From the IMG/VR virus record IMGVR_UViG_3300043570_001331, positions 1-41,654 of that record: a stretch of 41,654 bases of DNA, one strand, 5' to 3'. Positions 11,998 to 41,145 of the stretch are shown here, one piece after another. The position numbers were made by a program, and so were the translations under genes. Positions within the stretch are counted from its first letter, which is position 1, and each line of letters begins with the position of its first letter. Under the pieces are notes generated by a model. It worked only from the letters and a program-made list of their open reading frames with translations. It searched no databases and had not been told where the DNA came from. The DNA is from a virus.

Positions 11998-12310
11998 AAT
12001 AATAGAAATAGTTTGTTAAAGATGTTTTATAATCTTGTAATGAAGGTAGTAGAGGATAAGGAATAATCAATACCGCACCATCATATATGTTATTCTCTAA
12101 ACCTCCAAATTCGGGGTTTGCTTGTAATATTAACCATCCAAAATAAGGTGAGTTGTAGAACTCTTGAGAAACAACATCTAATCTACTTCTAGCAACTTTA
12201 TAGATATAAGTTTTGTCAGTTGTTTTTTGTGGTAATTGTACAAAAGGTACTACAGTTTGTTCACCGTTAATTAAGAAGTCACTATATCTATTCCAATATT
12301 GATATGCCAT
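11987..12310 (-). CDS. 53: Baseplate wedge protein, gp53-like with LysM-type fold
   Basis: A 107-residue protein. It begins AYQYWNRYSDFLINGEQTVVPF and contains YIYKVARSRLDVVSQEFYNSPYFGWLILQAN, then GAVLIIPYP. This is the pattern of small baseplate proteins (T4 gp53, P2 gpX-like) with a LysM-like unit: a strand, a helix with LDxVSQEFY, a helix with GWLIL.AN, and a final strand ending in IIPYP. In T4, gp53 joins neighbouring wedges during baseplate closure. Its start overlaps the stop of the 1680-residue gene as TAATG (translational coupling), and its end overlaps the hub gene by 11 bases. Confidence 0.7.
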   Translation of the reverse strand: MAYQYWNRYSDFLINGEQTVVPFVQLPQKTTDKTYIYKVARSRLDVVSQEFYNSPYFGWLILQANPEFGGLENNIYDGAVLIIPYPLLPSLQDYKTSLTNYFYYYGR

Positions 12311-15300
12311 TAGTTAAGTTTTGCTTTAGATATGAATACGTCTGTAGAATTTTCATCGTTCCACGTTTTATTGTTTGTATTTTGGTTTGCCGTGGCACCT
12401 AAACCTTTTATTAATTTTTGTTGTGAGTCGGTATTTGCACCTACAGTAGTATAAGTAAAGGTTCTTTTCTTTTTAAGAGTAAATGGAGTGTATTTTAAGA
12501 AAGTTTTTAATCTATCTTTTTCCATAACATTCTCAATGAAATCTTTAGTAATCGCATTCTCTTCATCGAATACGGGTTTAACCGCTACCCTATCTTTATT
12601 ACCGTCTTTCCAATATTCATCAAACTTTTTACTAATATATTTATTGTCAGCTTTATTAAATAAATCTGAATTGTCAATAACATTTTTAATTAATGCATCT
12701 TTAAATGTCGCATATTTTGTGGCGTCAGTAATATTGTCTGAAATAATCATGTAAACTCTTCTAAAAATACGACCTTTATTAGTATCACCAAATAATGAGT
12801 TTTTACTAAACGGTATAAAAACATCTTTAGTTTTAACGGTATTTGGTTCTTTAAAAACTAAGGTTCCTGTAAATCCAGTTCCTTTGTAAACAAAACTAGT
12901 TGCACTCCAAATAATTGTATTAAAATCGGTTATACCACTACTAATTACGCCAACATCATTCTTAAGTTCATCAAAAGTATTTGTTACTCCTTCAGAACTT
13001 GGGTTAACTTCTGTAGTTCCTGATATAAGATAAGAAACCACTTTACCATCTTTTATTTGATATCCATCGGTTCCTGTACCAGGATATGCTGGTACCGTAT
13101 ATGTTATAGTATTTACCCTTCCAATATATCCTATATAACTTTGTTGAACGGCAACCATACCATTTGCAATGTTAGTTACCGCATTTTGAAATACACTTTT
13201 TTTATTTTTAACAAAATTTAAATAATTATCTTTAACTTGGTTAATCAGACGATTTGTAAAATCATTTTTATTTTCTTTTAGAAACTCAATAAACCCTTCA
13301 TTTTCATTTTCAATATCCTCAATTAATTGAGTGAATATTTCATCAGTTCTTTTTTCTAAATTATATGGTTTACCAAATAAAACTGTATCGGTTGCTTTAG
13401 TTTGTAAAAACTCACCATCTTGATACGTTCTTTCCATCATCCATTGTTGACGAACCGCATTATTATATTGACTTAAAGCTTCTTTGTTTTTATTAACAAC
13501 ATTGGTAAAATATGTTTGAGTCTCTTCAACAACTTTATCCATGAATATATTATAGTTAATCGTACCTGTTTGACTAGTACCACTTGCAATATTGCTTGTA
13601 ACGGCACCAATTGTCGAATTATTATTTTGACCATTTTGAACCGCCGCCTGATTTAAAGTTGGAGGTTGAACACCATTTTCAATTGCATATTTTAAGAAAT
13701 CTTTGTCAATTACTTTATAACTTAAATCTGTTGCATCAGCCCTATCATCATACATTTCAGTGTTTGCATAATAATTAAACGTTAACGCATTTTGTAATCT
13801 GTCCACAGATTCTTTTAATCCACTACCTCCAACAAAATCAAAAGATAAAGTTACGTTAGCAATCATTGGTTGTACACCAATACCTTCAGGGTTAAGGTCT
13901 AAATCCTCGTATGCTAAAGTTAATCCTTTTGGGATAATTTTTGTATTATAAAAATCTCCAACCCTTAGAACTAATACGGGTGGTGCCCCAAATGATGTGT
14001 TTGTTGCGTTTTCATAATCATTAGTTATTTTACCATTAACCGTTTTAACCGTAGGTATTGTATCACCAGGTCTCATACATTGTTGTAAGAAAGTTAATCT
14101 TGAATTAAGACCTTCAGGTGTGATTGAATGGAATGCTGGTTGAAAGAATTTTAACTTATCTCTAAGGTTATCATAAACCATAGGAGTGTCTTGTTTAATT
14201 GTTTCAAAATAATCACATTCTGATAATAATGACCTTAAAACTCGTTTACTAATATTATCTCTACTAACAACTTGAGTTTCAAGGGTGTTTTGCGTTTCTG
14301 TGGTTGTAACAACTGTACCAACTAACTTAGGTGGTATTATTGGGGCAGGAGGACTATAAAAATCAATCGTATCAATAAAGGCTCTTCTACATGCCATTGC
14401 ATTTGTTGTATATATCTCTTTACTCTTTTTTTGACTATCACTATCAGTACAAGTTACAACTTTTTTTGGAAAGAATTCCGTTGTTTTAGTATCATATGAT
14501 AATGGTTGAGCACTTTCACCTAAAGCACCACCAACTTTAACTATTAATCTTTGTGGTGTACCTGTAACATATTTAGTTAATTTTGTATTACCTGTTATAA
14601 ATGTAATTGCAGAATCAATTCTTCTTCCAGATAACGCTATATTATATTCGTTTGTCGCAGCAGCAGATGCATTAGCATTAATTACAATTGTAATTATTCC
14701 TGTAAGGTTATTAGTAAGTTGTTTATCTATTTCATCTATTAATTCCCCAAACTTTTTTTTGTTTGGAATTATAACACTATCAAAAAATGATGTTGTCTGT
14801 TCTGCAGTATTAGGAGATTGGTCTTTATAATATGTTTTTGTTTGTTCGCTAACATATATGTCATAAAGACTGTCATAATCCACGCTAGTTTTTGCTGGAA
14901 TATCGTTGTCAAAATAAAGTCCCATTTGTTCATAACCATTAAAGATTGTATTAATAGACTCACCATCACTTGATACTTGGGCGGAATTATCTAACCCTTT
15001 AAGACTATATTCTATTTGTTCTTTAGTTAGTTCTTTTGAAGTTATTGCTTGTTGTAGTTGAAATAAATCATTTGGACTAATTGTGTAATATTTTTTAGCA
15101 AGTTCATATAAATCGTATTTTCTACATCCTGCAAAGAATGATTCTAAAATACTATCAATTCTAACTTTATTTGTTTCATTACCCAATACTTTATTAACAA
15201 TTACATTCAAGACAGATGGATGGTCAACCACTATTTTCCAAGTTAAACTACCTGACCTACTTGTATTTTTATAAGTATAAATTGGCTCTGGCCTTCCAAT

Positions 15301-17352
15301 AAAATCACTTTGATTCCAATTGGGGGTTACAGTTTCGCTAAAAACTAATCCGTATGGTGGGAACCACATAACTCTACCGCCATTAGGTCCTCTTTCACAA
15401 ACAGGTAAATCAGATACCGCAAAACCAGGCGTGTTTGAGGTTACCCAAGCTAAATTCTCAATTGAGAACATATATTTTTTAGCGTAAGCGGTATCATAAC
15501 TTCCAATTAAATTGGTTGAATCTTGTCCTCCTTCTTGTTTGTTTGGTGCAATATTAAGGTTATATGTTTTATCTAATACTGAATATGAGAATCTTCTACC
15601 TTCTGTAACAACTCCATCTTGTTTTTGTAAGTCATTATATTGTAAATAAGGAGTATCTTTAGCAAATACTCTACAATATTCAGTTCCAACTTCTTGTCCA
15701 ATAGAACCAACATAACTTAATACTCTTGAACCTTTGGTTATTTCTTTATAACCATCGTGGAATACTTTACTAACTTGGTCAATTGCATTACCAACGTGTT
15801 GTAATCTTTTACCTCCTTCAGGTTGACTATTAATAATTCTTTGAGTATCATCTAAGATTGAACCTTCTTTAAAAGTTCTTTCAGTTGACTCTGTTGTATT
15901 GTATGATGATGGTTTAAAATCAGAATCTTCTCCAGTAATTTCTCCACCAACACCTACCTTCTTTCCTGCATTACCTTTGTATTTTGGTGAAACCCATGTG
16001 AAACCACCTTCAATACCACCACCATTACTATAGGTAGGACCATTAGCACCTAAACGAATATCCTTACTTGGACCTTCATATAATTGAGCTAATTCGTGTG
16101 GACCATAAACAGGTGATTGTTGTTCATTACCAAACGCATCAACAGGTAATGCTCTACTTGGAGAGAATACTCTTGACGGGTCAGATGATATTGAACCAAC
16201 ATAAAAATTAGAATTATTTGTACTTGTACCAACAATTGCTCCACCTAATCTATCAAGTAATGTTCTATCATAATCAGGTTTGTATTTGTTGTAATTTATG
16301 TTTTTCCATAAAATAGATTTTTGACCTTGACCTGTATTATTATAAAATATTTGAGAACCTGTCTTACCCGCACCTAATAATTTATTTACGAAATTACCTA
16401 CAGCTGAAAGCGGATTAGCCAACAAAGATTGTTGTATTGTCGTTGGTGAAGGAGGATTAATATTAGGGTCAAAATATGAACCAGGTATTAATGAAAACGG
16501 AATAACACTACCACCTAATCTAAGTAAGAAGTCGGCGGATGCGGTTATTGGATTTGAAGGTACTGTAATCTGATAGTTAGGTTCGATTAACGGAACCCTA
16601 CCTGTTAAAATGTTAGTAACATTAGTACTACTATTAACATTTAATATATTTGCTCGTCCAAGTGTTCGTCTTAATGTTTCTCTACCAATTCTATCTTCAA
16701 ATTCTTTTTTAAGTGTCTTTGCACCTAATCTTGCTATAAAGGAATCACTACTTAATAATCCATTACTACCCGTTGGGTCTGGATTTAATAAAATTGATAA
16801 TGGAGTATATGATGAAGAATTAAATGTTGTTGGGTAAGGTTGGGAAGTATATAAATTTCTTGTACCTCCAGGAATTGAATTTGAAACTACGTCTAATTGG
16901 TCAAAAAATATACCAGCATCTAAATCTATTAAATTAGCATTTGAACCTTGACTACCAATTGGACCATAAACATTAAGACCTAAATATGGACGAACGTTAT
17001 TACCCCATCCAACAAATGCTGACCTGTTAGCTTGGTTTATAATATAGGCATCTTGTTGACCTGGTCCATATTCACCTTGATTTGAAAATGCGTTAGTTAA
17101 TCCATTTGGGTCTGGAACTTGTTTAAATCCCCCATCCGAACCCCATCTATTTAATGGATATAAACCATTTGCAAATGTTGGGTTATCTATTAATCCATCA
17201 GGACTATCAATAACCGCTAAGTCGGATTGAATTACCTCATATGTGATTGGGGGCGTAGCTTTATATGGAGATTTAGCATATGGTACCAAATTTCTTGTTA
17301 TAAGTTTTTTTCTAAAAACTTCGCTGCTAATATAATCTAACGGACTTGCCAT
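12310..17352 (-). CDS. Large baseplate/tail protein with OmpA-like domain (1680 aa)
   Basis: First gene of the operon that continues with the gp53-like and hub genes. The N-terminal ~500 residues are rich in Asn, Gly, Pro and Ser (YGPIGSQGSNANLIDLDAG). The middle includes AWVTSNTPGFAVSDLP and PPYGLVFSETVTPNW, then TSRSGSLTWKIVVDHPSVLN, typical of structural baseplate proteins. About residues 863-953 resemble the OmpA/MotB C-terminal domain: a helix (KFGELIDEIDKQL), a strand (GIITIVINANAS), then NEYNIALSGRRIDSAITFI and RLIVKVGGALGESAQP. The C-terminal third contains long helices and a basic end. The start ATG is 12 bases after a TATTTATA motif, with no Shine-Dalgarno. It is probably a wedge or peripheral baseplate component; exact identity is unknown. 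Confidence 0.75.
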   Translation of the reverse strand: MASPLDYISSEVFRKKLITRNLVPYAKSPYKATPPITYEVIQSDLAVIDSPDGLIDNPTFANGLYPLNRWGSDGGFKQVPDPNGLTNAFSNQGEYGPGQQDAYIINQANRSAFVGWGNNVRPYLGLNVYGPIGSQGSNANLIDLDAGIFFDQLDVVSNSIPGGTRNLYTSQPYPTTFNSSSYTPLSILLNPDPTGSNGLLSSDSFIARLGAKTLKKEFEDRIGRETLRRTLGRANILNVNSSTNVTNILTGRVPLIEPNYQITVPSNPITASADFLLRLGGSVIPFSLIPGSYFDPNINPPSPTTIQQSLLANPLSAVGNFVNKLLGAGKTGSQIFYNNTGQGQKSILWKNINYNKYKPDYDRTLLDRLGGAIVGTSTNNSNFYVGSISSDPSRVFSPSRALPVDAFGNEQQSPVYGPHELAQLYEGPSKDIRLGANGPTYSNGGGIEGGFTWVSPKYKGNAGKKVGVGGEITGEDSDFKPSSYNTTESTERTFKEGSILDDTQRIINSQPEGGKRLQHVGNAIDQVSKVFHDGYKEITKGSRVLSYVGSIGQEVGTEYCRVFAKDTPYLQYNDLQKQDGVVTEGRRFSYSVLDKTYNLNIAPNKQEGGQDSTNLIGSYDTAYAKKYMFSIENLAWVTSNTPGFAVSDLPVCERGPNGGRVMWFPPYGLVFSETVTPNWNQSDFIGRPEPIYTYKNTSRSGSLTWKIVVDHPSVLNVIVNKVLGNETNKVRIDSILESFFAGCRKYDLYELAKKYYTISPNDLFQLQQAITSKELTKEQIEYSLKGLDNSAQVSSDGESINTIFNGYEQMGLYFDNDIPAKTSVDYDSLYDIYVSEQTKTYYKDQSPNTAEQTTSFFDSVIIPNKKKFGELIDEIDKQLTNNLTGIITIVINANASAAATNEYNIALSGRRIDSAITFITGNTKLTKYVTGTPQRLIVKVGGALGESAQPLSYDTKTTEFFPKKVVTCTDSDSQKKSKEIYTTNAMACRRAFIDTIDFYSPPAPIIPPKLVGTVVTTTETQNTLETQVVSRDNISKRVLRSLLSECDYFETIKQDTPMVYDNLRDKLKFFQPAFHSITPEGLNSRLTFLQQCMRPGDTIPTVKTVNGKITNDYENATNTSFGAPPVLVLRVGDFYNTKIIPKGLTLAYEDLDLNPEGIGVQPMIANVTLSFDFVGGSGLKESVDRLQNALTFNYYANTEMYDDRADATDLSYKVIDKDFLKYAIENGVQPPTLNQAAVQNGQNNNSTIGAVTSNIASGTSQTGTINYNIFMDKVVEETQTYFTNVVNKNKEALSQYNNAVRQQWMMERTYQDGEFLQTKATDTVLFGKPYNLEKRTDEIFTQLIEDIENENEGFIEFLKENKNDFTNRLINQVKDNYLNFVKNKKSVFQNAVTNIANGMVAVQQSYIGYIGRVNTITYTVPAYPGTGTDGYQIKDGKVVSYLISGTTEVNPSSEGVTNTFDELKNDVGVISSGITDFNTIIWSATSFVYKGTGFTGTLVFKEPNTVKTKDVFIPFSKNSLFGDTNKGRIFRRVYMIISDNITDATKYATFKDALIKNVIDNSDLFNKADNKYISKKFDEYWKDGNKDRVAVKPVFDEENAITKDFIENVMEKDRLKTFLKYTPFTLKKKRTFTYTTVGANTDSQQKLIKGLGATANQNTNNKTWNDENSTDVFISKAKLN
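14495..14768 (-). other. OmpA/MotB-like domain inside the 1680-aa tail protein
   Basis: The encoded segment has the OmpA_C pattern: strand, N-x(4)-N-x-A-L-S-x-x-R-R helix, then V-x-V-G-G-x-L-G-E-S-A-Q-P, parallel to OmpA 'NxxLSxRRAxxV' and 'GxGExxP'. The Arg that contacts diaminopimelate in OmpA is retained within LSGRR. The Asp of the usual TDxxG is not obvious (NASAAATNEY instead). Confidence 0.55.
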
Positions 17353-27863: not shown

Positions 27864-29615
27864 ATGGAGATAAGTTTAGAGTCAAGAGCAATGATAATTC
27901 TTGAAACTTACGAGGGTGGTAATAACCATATTTTGGAGTTAAAACGTAAATCACAGATTAACAAAAAATTCTACCCAACAAGAAGTCAATCAGAATATAT
28001 TATATCGTTCCACGATAAGCAACCAAAGGTTGCAAGAAAGTGGGTAATCCTTGATGCCTACTTCGCTCAGAAATTAGCTGACGATAAATTATACACCGAA
28101 ATACCCGATAAGATTTGGGTTGAAAAACTTTTGGCGGATAAAGAAAAGGCTTACCATATTTGGGGTAAAGTTTTTGACACAGAAGAATTACACGATTTTT
28201 GGTTACCAAAAGCGGCAATCATTAAAGACAACTCAGTCAAAGATGTTGTAATTGATTATTCGAAATATTCTAATCGTCCCCCACTTGAACATCAAAAAGA
28301 AGCAATCCAAAAATTAGTAGAAAACAAAAAGTTCATCTTGGCAGATGATATGGGATTGGGTAAAACCACATCTACGATTATTGCAGCATTAGAGACAGGA
28401 GCTAAAAAAGTTTTAATCATTTGTCCTGCAACTTTAAAGATTAATTGGAAACGTGAGATTGAAAACTATTCGGACAAACCAATCTACATTGCTGAAGGTA
28501 AAAATTTTAACACCGATGCTGATTTTGTCATTACAAACTACGATATCATTAAAAACTTCCACGACCCTAAAAAGAAAGATGATTCACAAATTCTTTTATC
28601 TAAATTTGATTTAGTTATTGTTGATGAAGCACACTATATTAAGAACGCTACAGCTCAAAGAACAAAACTAATCAACGACATTGTTAAGAATATTGATAGG
28701 ATTTGGTTGTTAACTGGTACACCAATGACATCAAGACCAATAGATTATTTTAACTTGTTAAGTATTATTGATTCTCCCGTCGCCCGTAATTGGATGGCTT
28801 ACGCAATTAGATATTGTCAAGGGTATCAATTTAATGTTGGTGGAAGAAAAATTTGGAATGTCACAGGAGCGTCAAACTTAGAAGAATTGAGAGACCGAAC
28901 TTTAGGTTTAACATTAAGAAGATTAAAAGAAAATGTCCTTGATTTACCTGACAAGATAATCACACCCGTTTACTTAAGATTAAAGTCAAAAGAGTATGAA
29001 GAAGTTATGGGTGAGTACTACGATTGGTATGACAAAAACCCTGAAGAGTCAAAATCGTTAACAGTCCAATTTTCAAAATTAACTAAAGTTAGACAAATAA
29101 TTGCCGATGAAAAAATTACTCAAACAATTGAACTTGCCGAAAACATATTAGAACAAGATAAGAAAGTTATTATTTTTTGTAATTTTACCGATTCATTAAA
29201 TAAGATTGCCGAACATTTTGGAAAAGCGGCGGTTAAGCTAAATGGAGCGATGTCAAAACCTGAAAAACAATATTCTGTTGACCAATTCCAAGAGAACCCA
29301 AAGATTAAAGTTTTTGTTGGAAACATTAAAGCAGCTGGTGTCGGGATTACATTAACGGCAGCAGAAGCGGTTATTATGAACGACTTATCATTTTTACCTT
29401 CGGACCATGCACAGTCAGAAGATAGGGCATATCGTTACGGTCAAAAAAATAATGTTTTGGTTTATTATCCAATATTTGAAAACACAATTGAAGGTATTAT
29501 CTACGACATCCTAAACAACAAAAAACAAGTTATTGCAACAGTGATGGGAGACAACTTAAACCCCGCAGATGCCGCAGAAGAAATTCTACAAAGAATTAAT
29601 AAGTTGAGACATTAA
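27864..29615 (+). CDS. SNF2/UvsW-type superfamily 2 DNA helicase
   Basis: A 583-residue SF2 ATPase. Motif I is DDMGLGKT (residues 161-168), Ia is VLIICPATLKINWKRE, II is LVIVDEAHYIKN, and III is LTGTPMTSRPIDY. The C-terminal RecA lobe has KVIIFCNFTDSL (motif IV), VFVGNIKAAGVGITLTAA (V) and SEDRAYRYGQ (VI). This is the Snf2 type closest to SMARCAL1-like annealing helicases, and it probably fills the niche of T4 UvsW (branch migration and R-loop removal). The N-terminal ~140 residues are a distinct small domain. It is the first of a plus-strand group and is divergent from the neck operon. Confidence 0.9.
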   Translation: MEISLESRAMIILETYEGGNNHILELKRKSQINKKFYPTRSQSEYIISFHDKQPKVARKWVILDAYFAQKLADDKLYTEIPDKIWVEKLLADKEKAYHIWGKVFDTEELHDFWLPKAAIIKDNSVKDVVIDYSKYSNRPPLEHQKEAIQKLVENKKFILADDMGLGKTTSTIIAALETGAKKVLIICPATLKINWKREIENYSDKPIYIAEGKNFNTDADFVITNYDIIKNFHDPKKKDDSQILLSKFDLVIVDEAHYIKNATAQRTKLINDIVKNIDRIWLLTGTPMTSRPIDYFNLLSIIDSPVARNWMAYAIRYCQGYQFNVGGRKIWNVTGASNLEELRDRTLGLTLRRLKENVLDLPDKIITPVYLRLKSKEYEEVMGEYYDWYDKNPEESKSLTVQFSKLTKVRQIIADEKITQTIELAENILEQDKKVIIFCNFTDSLNKIAEHFGKAAVKLNGAMSKPEKQYSVDQFQENPKIKVFVGNIKAAGVGITLTAAEAVIMNDLSFLPSDHAQSEDRAYRYGQKNNVLVYYPIFENTIEGIIYDILNNKKQVIATVMGDNLNPADAAEEILQRINKLRH

Positions 29616-29656: not shown

Positions 29657-31195
29657 ATGAAAAAAACACAAGAAAAAATTCAACAACTTGAAAAACAAAT
29701 TCTCACAGAACAAGCGAATCAAGAGAAAGAGTTGTTGATTACAGAAATGAAAAGAATTGGAATAGAGAAATTACCTTATTCCTACGCAGCCCTCAAACAA
29801 TTTATTAATGCAGAGACAATGGACATCCATTATAATATGCATTATAAAGGTTATGTTAAAAAACTAAATGACGCTTTAGCAAAGAAAAAATACGGGGATT
29901 TAGATTTAGAAAAAATAATTAAAACCATTGGTCGTTTTGATAAAACAATAAGAAACAACGCGGGTGGAGCGTTTAATCACGCATTGTTTTGGAATATGTT
30001 AACACCAACACCAAAAAAATTGGAGGGTGACCTTTACAAGAAGATTACAAAACAATGGGGAACTTTCTCAGGGTTTAAAAAAGAATTTGAAAAGATTGCA
30101 AAAGACAGATTTGGTTCAGGTTGGGTATGGTTAGTTTTAACTGCAAAAAATACACTTAAAATTATGTCAACTCCAAACCAAGATAATCCGTTGATGAATG
30201 TTATTCAAGGCGGTGGATTTCCGTTATTAGGTTTGGACTTATGGGAACATGCTTATTATTTGAAGTATCGAAATAAAAGAGACGAATACATTAAAAACTT
30301 TTGGAAAGTTGTTAATTGGGATTTTGTTAGTAAGATGTATGAAATGAAAACTGAAACAAAATTAAATGAATCGGTTAATCTACAGAATATTATCACCGAA
30401 TCCACACACGTTAGATTTTGTGATGCTCAAGAAGTGAAAGCATATAAGGACTTAATTAATGATTCAAAAACAAAAAAAATATATCAAGAGGGTATTACCA
30501 AGGTCTTAAGAAAAGTTTTTAATCAATTTTGGGTTGAGGGTAATTCAAAAGAAATGTCAGGTTTCTATGGTGTGGAAACAAGAGAAGGTAGGTCTGTATT
30601 AAATAATCTTAATACAAACTTTAATACATTTTGTCTATTAGTTAGGGCGGTTAATAAAGAAATTATGAGAATTAATAGACCCGAAAAAATCTTTAAATTT
30701 TATGATAAAGAAAAAAGAACGGCTAAAGAAGTTAATAGATTTATAACTGCATTAGATTTTTTCAGTAAAGAAATTTTTACAAAAAGGAATGACGATTTTA
30801 TTAACATCATTAAAGTACTTAAGAAATTATGGGATAGAGGTCAAAAATCTGAAGATGATGTTTATGTTAAAATTGAAGAATACTTTAAAGGAAATGCCAA
30901 AGTAACTAAGATTGGTGGTCACGGACAAAAAGAAGACGCATTAAAGGGTATAGATTTGATTGTTAATTTGGGGGGTATTCTACATACATCTCAAGTTAAA
31001 CCATTCTCAAGTTTTGTAAAAACAGAAGAAATTATTGAAATGTTGGATACAGGAAACGTTAAACACTATAGTGTTGATTGGTTAATATTCATCAACCCAA
31101 AGACAAATAATGTTATGATTTTTGAAAACAAACCTATTAGTGAAAAAAACCAATACGTTTTTAAACTTGAATCGTTATTATACGAAATAAAATAA
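29657..31195 (+). CDS. Fe/Mn superoxide dismutase fused to putative PD-(D/E)XK nuclease domain
   Basis: A 512-residue two-domain protein. Residues 1-33 are a charged helix. Residues ~38-230 are a complete Fe/Mn superoxide dismutase with all four metal ligands: H58 (TMDIHYNMHY), H108 (NNAGGAFNHALFW), D194 and H198 (LGLDLWEHAYYL). NQD at 174-176 resembles the second-shell Gln of Mn-type enzymes. Residues ~240-512 are unrelated to SOD. The last ~110 have helix VYVKIEEYFKG, then GHGQKEDALKGIDLIV and ILHTSQVKPF, with D433 and Q446-x-K448 in the spacing of Mrr-like PD-(D/E)XK nucleases, followed by a VDWLIFINP strand. The SOD would remove superoxide; the nuclease call is inference. It lies between the helicase and a connector-like gene. 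Confidence 0.85.
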   Translation: MKKTQEKIQQLEKQILTEQANQEKELLITEMKRIGIEKLPYSYAALKQFINAETMDIHYNMHYKGYVKKLNDALAKKKYGDLDLEKIIKTIGRFDKTIRNNAGGAFNHALFWNMLTPTPKKLEGDLYKKITKQWGTFSGFKKEFEKIAKDRFGSGWVWLVLTAKNTLKIMSTPNQDNPLMNVIQGGGFPLLGLDLWEHAYYLKYRNKRDEYIKNFWKVVNWDFVSKMYEMKTETKLNESVNLQNIITESTHVRFCDAQEVKAYKDLINDSKTKKIYQEGITKVLRKVFNQFWVEGNSKEMSGFYGVETREGRSVLNNLNTNFNTFCLLVRAVNKEIMRINRPEKIFKFYDKEKRTAKEVNRFITALDFFSKEIFTKRNDDFINIIKVLKKLWDRGQKSEDDVYVKIEEYFKGNAKVTKIGGHGQKEDALKGIDLIVNLGGILHTSQVKPFSSFVKTEEIIEMLDTGNVKHYSVDWLIFINPKTNNVMIFENKPISEKNQYVFKLESLLYEIK

Positions 31196-31213: not shown

Positions 31214-32338
31214 ATGCCAGTTATTCCAGAACCTGAAAGAAGTAAAATTTATACAAGGATTAAACACCTGTTAGGTGCTCCTTTAAGAAGTGTTGAAATT
31301 GAAGATGAAATGATGGATTCTTTGATGGAACTCTCTATTCAAGATTATGAACAATATGTTTTAAATTGGTTGATTGATAGTCAATGGGTTAACTTAGTTA
31401 ACTTAAATATGACTGAAAAATCTGTTGCCAATGCGTTAATTACAAGAACAATGGATTTTGAGCAACAATTTGCATACTCATATTCTAAAATTGTTGGACT
31501 TCAAGCTCAAGGTCCTTGGGTGTTAAAAAAAGATTATATCATTCTTGAACAAAACAAACAAAACTATGAAATCCCTGCAGGGCGTGACATCAATGAGGTG
31601 TTATGGTTTAGTAATCAACCTTTTACCGCATTTGGTATAGGCGGATTCGGTGGTATGGGTGGTGGAGCAGGTTTAGGGGCAAGTGAAGCAGGTTTCGCCC
31701 AAATGGGTAATCAAGGTTCTTATTTTATGATGTCAGGTTTTGACTATCTAATAAGAATGCAAGAAGCAAACATTTTAAATAGAATTCTTGGTGGTTCCTT
31801 AACTTATAGAATAACTGCATTACCTGATGGTAAAAAAGATTTACAACTTTATAACGCACCTGGTAGTCGTTTTAGTTGGAGTAATTATAATTCATATGTT
31901 GGTAAAGCGGTTTGGTATTGGTATTACGAAACAACTCCTGATAGTAGGGCAGACTGTTTAAAAAATAATCCTGATGTTATTAAATTACCATCGGATGTTC
32001 CGTTAGAAGAACTTACTTGGTCGGATTTAAATGTACCAGGACAACAATGGGTAAGAAGATGGTTCACAGCGTATGTAAAAGAAACATTAGCAAGAGTAAG
32101 AGGTAAGTATAGTGGTAATTTAAAGACACCAGACTCTGAGCTTACAATGGACTATACAAGTTTATTAACTGAAGCTAAAGATGAAAAGACAAAATTAATG
32201 GAAGAACTTACAGGTGCTGAAGGTTGGTTAACAAGATTAAGACCTGAAAAAGTTATGGAAAGAGAAGCATTACTTGCAGAGAATTTGAACAAACAAATGA
32301 AGTTCAGAGCAATGCCTCGTCAAATATACGTAATATAA
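31214..32338 (+). CDS. Connector/neck-like virion protein
   Basis: A 374-residue protein, probably structural. The N-terminus (ERSKIYTRIKHLLGAPLRSVEIEDEMM) and helix IQDYEQYVLNWLI are followed by a Gly-rich loop at about residues 140-160 (GIGGFGGMGGGAGLGA). The C-terminal half has LTWSDLNVPGQQWVRRWFTAYVKETLARVRGKYSG and a conserved-looking LLTEAKDEKTKLMEELTG helix. This C-terminal pattern (WVRRYALA..K..LGRVRxKY, then a long helix) is frequent in head-tail connector or neck proteins of large phages. No enzyme motif is seen. The next gene starts four bases after its stop. Specific identity (gp13/gp14-like) is uncertain. Confidence 0.55.
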   Translation: MPVIPEPERSKIYTRIKHLLGAPLRSVEIEDEMMDSLMELSIQDYEQYVLNWLIDSQWVNLVNLNMTEKSVANALITRTMDFEQQFAYSYSKIVGLQAQGPWVLKKDYIILEQNKQNYEIPAGRDINEVLWFSNQPFTAFGIGGFGGMGGGAGLGASEAGFAQMGNQGSYFMMSGFDYLIRMQEANILNRILGGSLTYRITALPDGKKDLQLYNAPGSRFSWSNYNSYVGKAVWYWYYETTPDSRADCLKNNPDVIKLPSDVPLEELTWSDLNVPGQQWVRRWFTAYVKETLARVRGKYSGNLKTPDSELTMDYTSLLTEAKDEKTKLMEELTGAEGWLTRLRPEKVMEREALLAENLNKQMKFRAMPRQIYVI

Positions 32339-32341
32339 TAT

Positions 32342-32677
32342 ATGTCAATAATAAGAACAGTACCCTCAACAAGGTTAATTAACGGACAAATATTGGAAAC
32401 ATCTGAAATGGCAATCATTTCAGAAACAGAATACAAAACAAATGGTGAAGATTGTATCATTGTAAGAAATGTATTAAAATCCACCATTACTTTAAATTCA
32501 CATACTACTGACCATATTGTAATAAAATCAATGACTAATGTCACAATAAAACCTGATATTGGTAAAATCGACGAAGACTATGATGAAATCGTTGCGGATA
32601 GATACACTTGTATTGAATTTAGATTTTGTGCTGGTAATTGGTATGTAATATCATCAGACGGTCTCAAGAACGCCTAA
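32342..32677 (+). CDS. Small beta-rich phage protein
   Basis: A protein of 111 residues. Repeated short strands (STITLNSHTTDHIVIKSMTN, then VTIKPDIGKIDEDYDEI, then CIEFRFCAGNWYVISSDG) suggest a small beta-sandwich or beta-helix, like head-decoration or tail-fibre tip modules; the ending 'GNWYVISSDGLK' is typical of such modules. It is translated four bases after the connector-like gene and probably belongs to the virion. Its last 24 bases overlap the 3' end of the DNA polymerase gene on the opposite strand. Confidence 0.6.
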   Translation: MSIIRTVPSTRLINGQILETSEMAIISETEYKTNGEDCIIVRNVLKSTITLNSHTTDHIVIKSMTNVTIKPDIGKIDEDYDEIVADRYTCIEFRFCAGNWYVISSDGLKNA

Positions 32678-35918: not shown

Positions 35919-36071
35919 ATGAAACCAAGAAAAAAAGAAGAAGATAAAAAAATTAAATTTGCGATTAGTTTAGACCCTAAATTATTTAAACGAATGGAAG
36001 ATGATATTACTAATAAATCAGGGCTTATTGAAAAATTACTTAGAGAACACTATGGAAAAAAAGATTTGTAG
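35919..36071 (+). CDS. Ribbon-helix-helix protein
   Basis: A 50-residue protein. A basic N-terminus (KPRKKEEDKK) is followed by strand IKFAISLDP, helix KLFKRMEDDI, a turn NKSG and helix LIEKLLREHYG. This is the classical ribbon-helix-helix order, with Ser in the N-cap position of helix B, as in CopG/Arc-type DNA-binding proteins. Its 3' end overlaps the start of the HNH endonuclease gene by 20 bases, so the two are probably co-expressed and may have moved together. It resembles the other small RHH gene in this window in size, strand and context. Confidence 0.72.
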   Translation: MKPRKKEEDKKIKFAISLDPKLFKRMEDDITNKSGLIEKLLREHYGKKDL

Positions 36072-36597
36072 TAAATGTAAGATTGAAAAAGATGTTTGTG
36101 AGTTTAATACCCGAAAAAATAGAAAAGGTATTATAATTTTAAGAGGATATTGTAAAAAATGCCATACAATTATGTCGGTTAATTTTAGTTTAAAAAACCC
36201 TAAAAAAACCAAACAATATAGAGATACTTGGTACAAGAATAACTCTAAAATTTTAGTAGAAAAAAATAAAAAAAGGAGAAATTCTGATTTATTATATAAA
36301 TTAAGAATTGGAATTAGAACAAGATTAAAAATGACATTAAAGAATAATTCTTTCAAGGGTAAAACTATTGAAATATTAGGTATGGATATTAATTCATTTA
36401 AGATTTATATTGAATCTAAATTTTTAAATGGAATGTCTTGGGATAATTATGGATTAAATGGATGGCATATAGACCATATAATTCCATTGTGTTCCGCAAA
36501 AACTGAAGAAGAATTTTATAAACTTTGCCATTATACTAATCTTCAACCACTATGGGCTAAAGATAATTGGAAAAAAAGTAATAAAATATTGAATTAA
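36052..36597 (+). CDS. HNH endonuclease (probable homing/mobile)
   Basis: A 181-residue protein. The N-terminal zinc-ribbon-like region has ICSKCKIEK and GYCKKCHT. A basic middle follows (DLLYKLRIGIRTRLKMTL). The C-terminal HNH domain has GWHIDHIIPLCSA, then YTNLQPLWAKDNWKKSNK, with the DH, the Asn and the downstream Lys-rich end typical of phage free-standing HNH homing enzymes. The frame is open upstream to 36001, but the ATG at 36052 gives the usual MEKKICSKC start. It sits on the plus strand between minus-strand genes, as mobile endonucleases often do. Its TAA shares a TTAA with the stop of the convergent glycosyltransferase gene. Confidence 0.85.
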   Translation: MEKKICSKCKIEKDVCEFNTRKNRKGIIILRGYCKKCHTIMSVNFSLKNPKKTKQYRDTWYKNNSKILVEKNKKRRNSDLLYKLRIGIRTRLKMTLKNNSFKGKTIEILGMDINSFKIYIESKFLNGMSWDNYGLNGWHIDHIIPLCSAKTEEEFYKLCHYTNLQPLWAKDNWKKSNKILN

Positions 36598-38270
36598 CTT
36601 TCTTTACGTAATTCGGCAGAATAAAACTCAAAACGGTCATGTTCTGTTGGGGTTAACAACAAAAGTCCTGAATTAATGTTTCCTTTAACAGTTTCTTGAT
36701 AACAATACGACATAAGAGTTTGTTCAAAGGGATGTGCCCACTTAGTCTCTAAATAACATTTATAATTTCCGTTTTTAGTTAAAATAATTGGCCAATTACA
36801 TAAATAAATTTCACCATCAATATACGATAATCCTTGGTGTGTTTTTATGGATTTGAATTTGGTTCTTGGAGCATTTGGGTCTAAACCTTGTACAGGTAAT
36901 GATGGTTTTTCGGGAAATAACTCCCTTCTTTTGTCTTGAGGCAAGTTGTACCAACTCCACTGCGTACCATTATCACCATAAAATTCAGTATAATTTAACT
37001 TTAAAAAATCAAAATTTTCTTGTTTCATTATTGATAGTGTTTTTGAATATAAGTTAGGAACAAACCTATTAAAACCATTTTTACATACTTCACCTTTTTT
37101 AGGGTAAAATGACATATCATCTTCAAACCAATAATAGAAATCTAAACCTGTCTCATCAAAATGTTCCGCAACAAATACTCTACCACCAACAATTCCAATA
37201 TTATCTTTCTTAATATGTTCAAAACCATATTCTTCACAAAGTTCTTGATATCTTGGTGTTGTTGATAAATCAGTTGAATTATCTAATAAAAACTTTTTTG
37301 GTTTAATAATAAAATCTTTATCGTATTCTAACATTGATTGTATTAGTGTTTCAAATTGATTTGGACTATTAAATGTAATAACATATAATCCCACCTTATT
37401 AGTATCCAAATTATTAAGTATAACTTCTTTAGTACCTTCCGACTTAACAACTAGTTCATCATTCTTTAAATCCTCAAAAAACTTACCAAATAAACCATTT
37501 GACTCAATCTCAAAGTAGTTAATCAAATCTGAGTGGGTATAACACATAATACTAAAAATTGATTCTTCAGTACCCATATATCCACTTTCTAATGTTGTCT
37601 TTAGGAAATTATAATAAATTCCGTTGATATCACTTATTGTGTGTTTTGGTCCACCAAAGAATCCTCCTCTTGCAACTTTATCTACTTTAGCACCTGCAAT
37701 TGAGTTCATTTTATTAATTTCAAATCCGTGTATTTCGGTATTTGCTTCGTATGGAAAACAAACAAACGAAAACTTTGAAATGTATTTTGGTAATTTTTCT
37801 AATACCTTATCATGAGTAAAATATCCAGGATGAACAGTATTAGTTAATCCCGCATCAATCCAAAACATCATCTCTGAATTGAATTGGTCCATAATTCTGG
37901 CATCATTTAGTAAAAACATTTTAGACATTACTAAAGGATTATACATATCCAATTTTGCTTGAGTTGATTCAGGTAACCATCCCGCAAGATTATACCATTC
38001 AGGATTATTTCTTATTTCTTGAATTTTATTATAAAAGTCATTATTTTTAAACCAGTCTTGACTACGAGCAATGAATTGAGTGTTTTCGCGACTTCTTCTT
38101 TCAAATACAAAAGATTCTAAATCGGAATCACCAAAAATAATCATTGGGTTCTCAACTTGTAATAGTTGTTCAAATTTATCTAAATAATGTTGAAATGAAC
38201 GAGACCAACCTTCAGTTAGTTTATCTCTTTTAATGTTCCAAAGTCCTGTGACTAATGTTATTTTACTCAT
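36594..38270 (-). CDS. Two-domain glycosyltransferase-like protein (HtrL/YibB-like plus GT-A)
   Basis: A 558-residue protein. The N-terminal ~290 residues resemble the HtrL/YibB family: ITLVTGLWNIKRD, MIIFGDSDLESFV, MFWIDAGLTN, GGFFGGPKHTI. The C-terminal part begins VGLYVITFNSPNQFETLIQSML and contains FLLDNSTD, NIGIVGGRVFVAEHF and YYWFEDDMSF, a GT-A fold with an EDD metal/nucleotide-sugar motif. It is the last gene of a four-gene overlapping operon (8-base overlap upstream). Its likely role is glycan addition to a phage or host component. The N-terminal half is a paralogue of the neighbouring 296-residue protein. Confidence 0.75.
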   Translation of the reverse strand: MSKITLVTGLWNIKRDKLTEGWSRSFQHYLDKFEQLLQVENPMIIFGDSDLESFVFERRSRENTQFIARSQDWFKNNDFYNKIQEIRNNPEWYNLAGWLPESTQAKLDMYNPLVMSKMFLLNDARIMDQFNSEMMFWIDAGLTNTVHPGYFTHDKVLEKLPKYISKFSFVCFPYEANTEIHGFEINKMNSIAGAKVDKVARGGFFGGPKHTISDINGIYYNFLKTTLESGYMGTEESIFSIMCYTHSDLINYFEIESNGLFGKFFEDLKNDELVVKSEGTKEVILNNLDTNKVGLYVITFNSPNQFETLIQSMLEYDKDFIIKPKKFLLDNSTDLSTTPRYQELCEEYGFEHIKKDNIGIVGGRVFVAEHFDETGLDFYYWFEDDMSFYPKKGEVCKNGFNRFVPNLYSKTLSIMKQENFDFLKLNYTEFYGDNGTQWSWYNLPQDKRRELFPEKPSLPVQGLDPNAPRTKFKSIKTHQGLSYIDGEIYLCNWPIILTKNGNYKCYLETKWAHPFEQTLMSYCYQETVKGNINSGLLLLTPTEHDRFEFYSAELRKES

Positions 38271-39153
38271 ATGTCCTATTTATTTCTTCTAAAATTTTAT
38301 AAAAACTTTTATTTATTCTTGTATGTTCGGCCATATCTGTACCAGCAACCCTTTCATCTTCATGCCACCAAATATCAAAGTGTTTACGCTCAAATAATTC
38401 TTTATGGTTATAATACATTAATGTCATAACACTTTCTTCATGAGGTAAACCCTTATCTTCGGTAATAACATTTTTGGTATAATCTTCAAACAAAGTTACA
38501 ATTTCATCCCACTTATCTTTATGACCACCAAATAAACCACCAATAATATGAATACCTCTTTCCCAATTCGAATACCATTTAGGGTCTAATGTACCCGACC
38601 AATAATTTCTGTCATTTTCTTTACCGATAATTAAAAATTTATCACCTGTATCTTCTATTAAATTTGTTAGAAAATTATTATTAAATAATGTTGATTCGTA
38701 ATATCTTTGTTCGGGATGAGTACCAACTAAATACTTGTTAGGGATTAATCCACAATGTGATAATCCTGCATCAATCCAGTAATAATAATCATAAGACTTA
38801 TCTTCATTCCACCACCAATGAAATTTACTATATTGAACCTCAATACATCTATCGGATTTTTTAGTCGTTTCAATATCTTTATGTTGATTTATTAAATCCT
38901 TAAATTTTGTATTGGAAATATCAAATACTTGAAGTTTTAATTTATCTGGTGACACATTATGTATTTCATAAAAAAACGTAATTAATGATGGTAATTCCCT
39001 ATCCGATGTATAACATAGAAAATCGGCATCTGTAATTTTTAAAAGGGATAATAAACTATACCTATAATGACCTCCTCTACCGACTCTACCACCAAATTCG
39101 GTACCGTTCAAATCACTATAAATTGACGTAATAAATTTAACTTTAGTTGTCAT
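38263..39153 (-). CDS. HtrL/YibB-like putative glycosyltransferase
   Basis: A 296-residue protein. It begins KVKFITSIYSDLNGTEFGG and contains DADFLCYTSD, YYYWIDAGLSHCGL, GIHIIGGLFGGHKDKW and a C-terminal HEESVMTLMYYNHKELF. The WIDAGL and GG(L/F)FGG(H/P)K motifs recur in the N-terminal domain of the next gene, so the two are paralogues. HtrL/YibB-type proteins occur in surface-polysaccharide clusters. It overlaps its neighbours by 11 and 8 bases, so translation is coupled. The sugar and acceptor are unknown. Confidence 0.7.
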   Translation of the reverse strand: MTTKVKFITSIYSDLNGTEFGGRVGRGGHYRYSLLSLLKITDADFLCYTSDRELPSLITFFYEIHNVSPDKLKLQVFDISNTKFKDLINQHKDIETTKKSDRCIEVQYSKFHWWWNEDKSYDYYYWIDAGLSHCGLIPNKYLVGTHPEQRYYESTLFNNNFLTNLIEDTGDKFLIIGKENDRNYWSGTLDPKWYSNWERGIHIIGGLFGGHKDKWDEIVTLFEDYTKNVITEDKGLPHEESVMTLMYYNHKELFERKHFDIWWHEDERVAGTDMAEHTRINKSFYKILEEINRTYE

Positions 39154-39877
39154 AATTAAAATTTTTGTGTTGATTGTTAATTTTTAATTCATTGGTTAGT
39201 GTTCCGTTTAAATATCCTGAAGGTATTTTACAAGGACTATATAAATTCCAATTATATGTTTGAGTATAAAAATTATTATAATCTCCGTGTGACACATCAG
39301 ACCAATTACTCATTTGAGGTGCTATTGGTAGTAACGGCACATAACTTTGTTTAATTGATATGACAAATTGTGAAATGTATTCATCAATTGCATAATAACC
39401 CAAATTCTCAGGTTTTTCTATTTCTAATACATTATCATAAATTGATTTATGATAAATAATCATATTTGTTGCATAAATACCTCTATGGTGTTCCTCTTTT
39501 GGTGGGAGATTTGTTATATCTAAAAATAATGGTTGTGTTTCACTACGATTAACAGGTCTGTTTAGTGTTGGTGCCAAATTTATAATTCCAAACTCAAAAT
39601 CACCCGATTCGGTTTCAATCTTATTTATTAAATCTTTGGAATAAGGTAAGAAGGTACAATCATCCTCAATAACCATAACCGATTCATATCCTCTCTCCTT
39701 TGCAATTTTTATAACCTCAACGTGAGATAAAGTACACCCCCCATGATTATTTAAATCAATTGCCTTAAATAATTCATATTCCCAACCAATATACTCCATT
39801 TCTTTTTTAATGTGTTCTAATCTATCAGGTCTCCTTTCAAGATTCACAACAAATTTTGGGATGTTTGTAATATTCAT
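39143..39877 (-). CDS. Family 25-type glycosyltransferase
   Basis: A 244-residue protein with the GT25 (LPS-type) pattern: FVVNLERRPDRLEHIKKEM at the start, then AIDLNNHGGCTLSHVEVIKIAKERG, then SVMVIEDDCTFLP where EDD binds metal. The C-terminal half is less typical (GIYATNMIIYHKSIYD, IDEYISQFV). Family members transfer galactose or related sugars to oligosaccharides, and eukaryotic relatives modify collagen hydroxylysine. It starts in a TAATG overlap with the upstream transferase stop and ends 11 bases inside the next gene. The acceptor is not known; a neighbouring Thr/Pro-rich protein is a candidate. Confidence 0.85.
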   Translation of the reverse strand: MNITNIPKFVVNLERRPDRLEHIKKEMEYIGWEYELFKAIDLNNHGGCTLSHVEVIKIAKERGYESVMVIEDDCTFLPYSKDLINKIETESGDFEFGIINLAPTLNRPVNRSETQPLFLDITNLPPKEEHHRGIYATNMIIYHKSIYDNVLEIEKPENLGYYAIDEYISQFVISIKQSYVPLLPIAPQMSNWSDVSHGDYNNFYTQTYNWNLYSPCKIPSGYLNGTLTNELKINNQHKNFNYDN

Positions 39878-41145
39878 TAGCTAACCATATTGTGACTTAA
39901 TTGTCCTGTTATTCTATCACACCATCCTTTTGATTCTGAGAACGGCCAAACAACCCAATGAGTTGGCATTTCATCTGTTTGAAATTCTCTCCATACCTTG
40001 CAATAGTTATCAGGGTCTCTCATAAATCCAGCAATCTCATTTTTGTCTGCATCTTTACGGAATAAAGTTTTATCATCTTTACCGTGGAAGGCAACAACCC
40101 AAAACTCATAATCTGTTTCAGGAACCTGTGAATATCCAATATCAATACAATGTTTGAACATCATACAGAAACTATCTTTCCATTCTTTTTCAGTTTCAAA
40201 GTTATATGGATTTGGTGGGTAGTTCTTATCTAAAGTATATTTGTCAATTGCTCGTTTTTCAAAAAGAATACCCGAATACTTTTCATAATCGGTTAAAGTT
40301 CTAACAGGACCAAAACCATAAGGACCATCGTGTCCTTCTTGTTTTTCACCATCCATACCAAATAACTTTCTATTTGTTAGGTGAGAGTGATTATTCTTTT
40401 GTCCCCAATCTTTATCAATATCCCATTGTTTTGTTCGACCTTTACGAGTATATTCGTGATAAAATATTGGAATATGTGGATGGAATAGGTCATAACCCCA
40501 AGTGTAAGCCCTAACCGCAATCGAAATCTCTTCTCCGTGAAAATAATATTCATTATTATGTTGAACTTCAGTTGAGAACTGTCCTAATGTAAAACAGAAG
40601 TGAGCGGAATAAAATCTTGCTGTTACAGGTTTTTTAAGGTCCTTCCATCCTGGTATTGTTTCAGGTAAGAAGAACACCGCACCTTCAGGAATGAATCTAT
40701 CAAAGACCATTCTCCAAGCGTCAGGAGCTCTTCCTGCTGGGTCATTATCAGGGTCAAAAGAAGGTACGTAACCTGTTAATAGAGGTTTTTTATATCCGTC
40801 TTTCTGTAACCCTTTTATCATTTTAATAAGAATAACATCCCAATCCTTAATAGTTCTCATATGACTATCAATTTGAAGGGTATATTCTTCACCTTTATAA
40901 AGTTGTTGAGTTAAGTTTCTTGCCCAACAAACACCTTTAGAATCCGTATGTGGAATATCTAAAATTCTAAATCTTTTATCATCTCTCCATTCATCAACAT
41001 TATCAAAACCGTCTTCTGGATTAAATTGTCTTGCAATTGCAAATACAAGATTTTTTGGATATTTAGCATTCTCCAACATATCTTTAATTGTTGGAACTAA
41101 TTGTGGGTCACAAAATGATGCAATTTGGATAAATATTTTACTCAT
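39877..41145 (-). CDS. GlcNAc-type polypeptide glycosyltransferase (Skp1-like family)
   Basis: A 422-residue protein. It carries the signature of the GlcNAc-transferase family that includes the eukaryotic Skp1-hydroxyproline enzyme: IFIQIASFCDPQLVPTIKDML, then NLVFAIARQF, KGVCWARNLTQQLY, EYTLQIDSHMRTIKDWD (DSH metal motif), and YFHGEEISIAVRAYTWGYDLFHP. The C-terminal ~120 residues (YEFWVVAFHGKDDKTLF, HWVVWPFSESKGW) look like an extra domain. It is the first gene of the transferase operon, downstream of a terminator that follows the mucin-tail gene. Known relatives add GlcNAc to protein hydroxyl groups, so a protein target is plausible. Confidence 0.85.
   Translation of the reverse strand: MSKIFIQIASFCDPQLVPTIKDMLENAKYPKNLVFAIARQFNPEDGFDNVDEWRDDKRFRILDIPHTDSKGVCWARNLTQQLYKGEEYTLQIDSHMRTIKDWDVILIKMIKGLQKDGYKKPLLTGYVPSFDPDNDPAGRAPDAWRMVFDRFIPEGAVFFLPETIPGWKDLKKPVTARFYSAHFCFTLGQFSTEVQHNNEYYFHGEEISIAVRAYTWGYDLFHPHIPIFYHEYTRKGRTKQWDIDKDWGQKNNHSHLTNRKLFGMDGEKQEGHDGPYGFGPVRTLTDYEKYSGILFEKRAIDKYTLDKNYPPNPYNFETEKEWKDSFCMMFKHCIDIGYSQVPETDYEFWVVAFHGKDDKTLFRKDADKNEIAGFMRDPDNYCKVWREFQTDEMPTHWVVWPFSESKGWCDRITGQLSHNMVS

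Follow-up and report, generated by a model that had tools for sequence, protein, structure and literature searches.

An open reading frame of a predicted T4-like jumbo phage joins a superoxide dismutase (SOD) to a putative nuclease with a PD-(D/E)XK core, and the fusion is family-wide and old, not an artefact. Because the joint between the domains resembles a head-maturation protease site, the enzyme pair may enter the next cell in the virus particle. Our preferred reading, in which both packaging and cleavage are deduced from sequence patterns and to which we give about an even chance of being correct, is that these are capsid-internal enzymes, cleaved apart during maturation and delivered with the DNA. 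The window is the whole 41,654-nucleotide stretch of IMG/VR virus record IMGVR_UViG_3300043570_001331.

Architecture and distribution of the fusion

The gene begins with an ATG at 29657 and continues through 512 uninterrupted codons to a stop ending at 31195, and the opposite strand has many stops. The gene, its parts and its neighbours are as follows (↓, putative cleavage point).

27864-29615, + strand: SNF2/UvsW-type DNA helicase, upstream (phrog_62, E=4.6e-116; ZorD helicase part, E=6.2e-45)
29657-31195, + strand: SOD–nuclease fusion gene, single 512-aa ORF
29657-29761, + strand: N-terminal extension, residues 1-35, predicted helix with invariant I/L28-x-E30-M31
29762-30346, + strand: Fe/Mn superoxide dismutase domain, Mn-type, residues 36-230 (Pfam, PDB SODs, NCBIfam, ligands)
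30362-30373, + strand: putative prohead-protease site 1, L236-N-E238↓S239 ([L/I]236-x-E238 in 130/130)
30392-30403, + strand: putative prohead-protease site 2, I246-T-E248↓S249 ([LIM]-x-E248 in 128/130)
30425-30790, + strand: helical middle domain, residues 257-378 (AlphaFold2 (AF2) model; N-[NK]-L-N-T-N motif)
30791-31192, + strand: PD-(D/E)XK nuclease-fold domain, residues 379-512 (Foldseek; invariant E399, D433, Q446-x-K448)
31214-32338, + strand: neck/head-completion-like gene, 374 aa, downstream (phrog_211 head-tail adaptor, E=1.4e-10)
32342-32677, + strand: 111-aa gene that closes the co-directional run; it follows the neck-like gene at every locus that extends far enough

IMG/VR was scanned with whole-protein, SOD-side and C-terminal-only patterns, and the best 80 loci were taken from each scan. 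At least 389 complete homologous ORFs are present, 129 of them distinct, with overall identity falling to 54%. Both halves occur in each complete homologue (389/389), 17 others stop at contig ends, and the best 80 loci per C-terminal-only scan include no close SOD-less relative of the C-terminal part. The preliminary description had proposed a genuine SOD–nuclease fusion and had named a missed frameshift or assembly join at about residue 235 as the danger to it; the recurrence of the complete fused ORF on many independent contigs excludes both.

Conservation is uneven along the protein. Mean SOD identity across the homologues is ~88%, and the C-terminal parts diverge to ~32%. Median dN/dS rises from 0.03 in the SOD through 0.06 in the middle domain to 0.09 in the nuclease domain, from which we conclude that all three are maintained by purifying selection. 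Invariance counts given here and below are over 130 distinct family sequences. SOD genes of phages are usually taken for auxiliary metabolic genes that serve the host. In this family a core phage function is indicated, because the SOD is joined to a nuclease in every member examined and lies among head and DNA genes.

A literature search found no published description of such a fusion, in agreement with the earlier statement that none was known, and PHROGs has no family for the protein at E<=0.1, SOD included. The same architecture is present in BFVD entry A0A6J5L953, which was deposited and annotated merely as a superoxide dismutase. A first full-length AF2 model, built from a shallow alignment, was weak over the SOD (pLDDT 59); of this model we relied on the C-terminal part alone, and that part was modelled again from a deeper alignment. 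BFVD entry A0A8D9CCA0 (uncultured marine phage, 1113 aa) matched that first model in Foldseek (E=5e-12, 546 columns) and may be a larger relative.

A complete Mn-type SOD

The first half had been described as an intact Fe/Mn SOD with ligands H58, H108, D194 and H198. Both Pfam domains are indeed found well above cut-off, Sod_Fe_N at residues 37-115 (E=1.6e-21, 77.0 bits, cut-off 27) and Sod_Fe_C at residues 124-226 (E=7.4e-40, 135.6 bits, cut-off 20.9), and the four ligands are invariant (130/130). Solved Mn-SODs are the best PDB matches of this part (best E=2.4e-56), and NCBIfam scores are 195.6 bits for the Mn type versus 163.7 bits for the Fe type. The SOD is thus predicted to be catalytically complete, with manganese favoured by the scores. 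In its full two-domain fold and four metal ligands it resembles bacterial Mn-type SODs (SodA; PF00081/PF02777), and in having equivalents of Tyr34 and His30 (Y66 and H62); its C-terminal active-site Gln (Q175) is placed as in Mn-SODs. Unlike SodA-type enzymes, it carries an extended N-terminus and a C-terminal addition of 280 aa, seen in no listed PDB SOD match.

A pattern-limited scan of genome contigs for a cellular donor of the SOD gave as its best match a 49% identical SOD in a Fluviicola MAG, at most a tentative candidate. This stand-alone SOD (L463, contig JAJTEO010000009.1) has the N-terminus MNLKIVDILREG, which contains an LRE↓G pattern, and its contig may be of phage origin and have been binned together with the host. 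Most INPHARED SOD matches at 38-49% identity come from 'phage' records that are short or unannotated, or from contigs of bacterial appearance, and are probably host DNA. Bacterial-type SOD genes occur in the short 'phage' records OR845917, OR851122, OR850395, OR850012 and similar entries, which probably represent host contamination.

A helical domain and a PD-(D/E)XK nuclease fold

The second half had been described as unrelated to the SOD and as ending in a GIDLIV...TSQVK arrangement like the core of Mrr-type PD-(D/E)XK nucleases. It is indeed separate from the SOD, and can now be divided into a helical domain (residues 257-378) and a nuclease fold (from about residue 379 to residue 512). No Pfam family was found above cut-off in this half. 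The GIDLIV...TSQVK arrangement is present, and E399, G431, D433, Q446 and K448 are invariant in 130/130 sequences, with no variation at D433, Q446 or K448 despite the divergence of the C-terminal parts. E399 sits on the helix that precedes the D433/Q446/K448 core.

An AF2 model of the C-terminal part, built from 48 diverse sequences, reached a pLDDT of 88 and a pTM of 0.77. In Foldseek searches of the PDB with this model, I-Ssp6803I, SPARDA DREN and Hjc came first, with probabilities up to 1.00 and a best E of 1.2e-3, and further restriction enzymes, BstEII included, stood lower in the list. SPARDA DREN is a PD-(D/E)XK enzyme with catalytic residues D41, Q60 and K62, and it resembles I-Ssp6803I (PMC12205087); D433, Q446 and K448 are the equivalents of its catalytic residues. 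The modelled C-terminal domain has a PD-(D/E)XK core, as had been suggested, and is a putative nuclease. A chance likeness to this superfamily is ruled out by the predicted fold together with the residue invariance.

The narrower 'Mrr-type' label is unsupported, because the Mrr profile gave no Pfam match at E<=1 and the closest folds are those just named. DUF6602 gave weak matches over the nuclease region, the best at 7e-4, all below cut-off. The C-terminal part has no match among GenBank phages even at E<=1, its profiles found nothing significant in a PDB sequence search, and a search with DNA patterns for divergent nuclease motifs brought up nothing beyond close members and truncated copies. 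The family is placed in the PD-(D/E)XK superfamily without a close named relative. With I-Ssp6803I, DREN and Hjc it shares the core topology, and with DREN the D...QxK arrangement; it differs in adding its own helical domain and the SOD, and no solved structure matches it significantly in sequence.

The presence of a collateral DNase, DREN, among the fold neighbours is in keeping with a counter-defence or host take-over factor, whose nuclease, expressed late or injected, would attack host or competitor DNA or block a defence system that generates oxidative stress. The internal proteins of T4 do include an anti-restriction factor (PMC3012670, PMC9958956). We consider such a role distinctly improbable, since PADLOC models returned 0 families for the fusion and for its C-terminal part, and the slow, uniform evolution and universal retention of the SOD are housekeeping-like rather than arms-race-like.

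Gene neighbourhood and phage lineage

The order helicase, fusion, neck-like gene was found in 80/80 loci of the first scan (best 80) and in 106 of the 112 loci of a divergent set; an EndoVII-like gene was scored in between at four of the others and two lie at contig ends. The neck-like gene also matches a Flavobacterium phage (Immutovirus) gene annotated 'putative head completion protein'. To one side of the locus are genes for tail sheath and tail tube, to the other one for a family B DNA polymerase.

Elsewhere in the window, an EndoVII/HNH-like gene (36001-36597) shifts position or is absent between relatives (variation at L045, L050, L078, L390, L417, L418 and L420), is sometimes scored between helicase and fusion, and looks like a mobile free-standing endonuclease. 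Proteins of 2419 and 1680 aa are encoded in the baseplate/tail region (4738-11997 and 12310-17352, - strand), with no PHROGs match at E<=0.01. A run of glycosyltransferase-like genes lies beside the DNA polymerase (36594-41145, - strand), the last matching phrog_24687 (E=4.8e-160).

Close relatives include contigs of 317-321 kb. The whole genome G001 (321 kb) encodes gp21 (PF03420, E=1e-21), gp23 (E=4.2e-71) and gp20 (E=3.5e-76). Its bS21 gene lies between those for protease and portal, on the opposite strand, an arrangement that has been described in Bacteroidetes jumbo phages from freshwater (PMC9723584). Carriers of the fusion are predicted to be T4-like jumbo phages infecting Bacteroidota.

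The constancy of this neighbourhood can be interpreted in more than one way. An SNF2/UvsW-type helicase as the preceding gene in nearly all loci would equally suit a cytoplasmic enzyme of DNA metabolism, never packaged or cleaved, whose nuclease would join the helicase in processing phage or host DNA as replication proceeds, the SOD shielding the site or the host. Zorya ZorD, with SNF2 and an Mrr-like nuclease in one protein and a helicase part that matches the neighbouring gene (E=6.2e-45), is in keeping with such a partnership, as are the metabolic or chaperone contexts of other phage SODs. This is the main rival to a capsid role, and we judge it unlikely, as it leaves unexplained both why LxE↓S motifs are conserved where the domains meet (described below) and why the opposite neighbour is always the neck gene. 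The fixed place before a neck/head-completion-like gene might instead reflect a structural use, in which one or both enzyme folds serve as an oligomerisation or DNA-binding scaffold in the head or neck and catalysis is incidental. Invariance of the catalytic residues of both enzymes (130/130) would be unexpected if activity were dispensable, and we regard this reading as very improbable.

Putative prohead-protease sites

The linker between the SOD and the helical domain (residues 231-256) is variable, with 57% mean pairwise identity, apart from two conserved glutamates. Site 1 reads L-x-E238-(S/T/Q) in 130/130 sequences, with I at 236 in one, and the residue after E248 in site 2 is mostly S, G or A. 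In the N-terminal extension, which is possibly a targeting propeptide, E30 and M31 are also found in 130/130; E30 thus has Met at P1'.

T4 gp21 and giant-phage prohead proteases cleave after Glu in short motifs (PMC5694885, PMC9026906). The scaffold protein of this lineage has conserved LKE↓S, [IM]NE↓S (e.g. INE↓S) and LIE↓S sites, whose pattern site 1 matches. The major capsid protein (MCP) has LINE↓A near residue 60, which by analogy lies about where T4 gp23, with its propeptide of 65 residues (PMC9958956), is cut. Among other window proteins with enough homologues, four conserved [LIVF]xE[SAG] motifs occur in ~4,500 columns, and none is [LI]xES. For the paired LxES...xE pattern, the linker is the sole match within the window; G001 has ten internal matches, the linker among them.

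The glutamates of G001 (7051) were also ranked with a head-only motif built from the head proteins of G003, a 317-kb relative, and its relatives. E248 ranks 25/7051 and E238 just 662/7051; with N-terminal tags added to the motif, E248, E238 and E30 rank 31, 201 and 108. The resemblance of the linker motifs to T4 gp21-type prohead-protease sites is suggestive and the sites are putative, LxE being a short motif and the linker motif having been spotted only after the alignment was seen. The conserved linker Glu residues could instead be structural. The preliminary description had listed defence or counter-defence, protection of phage DNA or host, and carriage in the virion as possible roles, choosing none; the linker motifs add evidence for the last, and the defence-family match that was sought was not found.

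N-terminal tags and SOD-less relatives

G001 (L272-L288, 321 kb) and G003 (L485-L500, 317 kb) each have 15 matches to a paired LxE(S/A/N)...xE(Q/S) pattern that start no later than residue 30 of a protein, so that in these two ~320-kb relatives the pattern is 11-14 times as frequent there as at internal positions. Most tags are alike, M.KIVRLTESDLVRLVKRVxKEQ, and MKYIITESQLKxIxxEQ also occurs. The tag is common to about 15 small proteins per genome that are otherwise unrelated, among them the following.

G001, 199373-199729, - strand: tagged ORF
G001, 203079-203474, - strand: tagged ORF
G001, 215492-216007, - strand: tagged ORF
G003, 177514-177912, - strand: tagged ORF
G003, 217275-217736, - strand: tagged ORF

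By analogy with T4, these tags are possibly capsid-targeting propeptides or cleavage signals. The fusion itself does not begin with the common form of the tag.

The same genomes also encode distant relatives of the C-terminal module that lack an SOD. The C-terminal profile matches G003 at 176194-177465 (- strand; L493:16194-17465) with 24.5 bits, where shuffled or reversed controls reached at most 9.7 (hhalign P=4.4e-5), and, more weakly, G001 at 178481-179848 (- strand; L280:18481-19848) with 21.1 bits (hhalign P=0.004). Both proteins start MRDLI... and continue with LxE-type sequences (LLRE↓E; LIE↓S), the one in G003 directly adjoins two tagged ORFs, and the one in G001 has a recognisable D...QVK motif. 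The N-[NK]-L-N-T-N motif of the middle domain is also recognisable in these paralogues. Conservation of the SOD-less helical plus PD-(D/E)XK relatives between genomes is low. We hypothesize that a tagged, capsid-bound nuclease gained an SOD at its front and that its tag was left as the linker.

A model for the enzyme pair

In the capsid-internal model, the fusion precursor would be made late and taken into the prohead core, as T4 internal proteins are. A gp21-type prohead protease would then cut the linker after E238 and/or E248, and perhaps also after E30, releasing free SOD and free nuclease within the capsid. Both enzymes would be injected together with the phage DNA. The SOD might guard early infection or the packaged genome against superoxide, and the nuclease might act on DNA, whether the host genome or restriction-damaged or branched phage DNA. 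A broader version, in which this two-enzyme polyprotein is loaded, split and injected as one of a larger capsid-targeted set bearing the LTES...VxKEQ tag in Bacteroidota jumbo phages, is advanced more tentatively.

SOD is found in the virions of giant viruses of eukaryotes (PMC9405923). If packaged and processed as proposed, the SOD would be, as far as we know, the first case of an antioxidant enzyme that particles of a bacterial virus deliver. The LxE tag would then also provide a sequence handle with which to predict other cargo injected by these abundant lake phages.

Comparison with known systems

Other jumbo phages also encode an Fe/Mn SOD, but the stand-alone enzymes of Vibrio phage 2.275.O and of the Wroclawvirus phages PA5oct and Callisto are ~180-190 aa, unfused, 27-32% identical and located in non-structural gene neighbourhoods. 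The bS21-encoding freshwater Bacteroidetes jumbo phages share with the fusion carriers T4-like genomes of ~317-321 kb and a bS21 gene among gp20, gp21 and gp23, and superoxide dismutase is nowhere mentioned in the main text of that report (PMC9723584). In Zorya, ZorD couples an SNF2 helicase to a nuclease, whereas here the two are separate proteins of neighbouring genes and the nuclease, which has no PADLOC match, is attached to an SOD; no other Zorya genes were recognised among the neighbours examined.

The T4 internal proteins (IPI-III and Alt), which have a capsid targeting sequence (CTS) and are processed by gp21, share with the fusion LxE-type motifs, the gp21/gp23 system and surroundings of late head genes. 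Foreign nucleases fused to the CTS are packaged in the T4 system, and giant-phage propeptides may have several cut sites (PMC9026906, PMC5694885, PMC9958956). The fusion, whose packaging we infer, differs from IPI-III and Alt in having its putative sites mainly between two enzymes and not just near a terminus.
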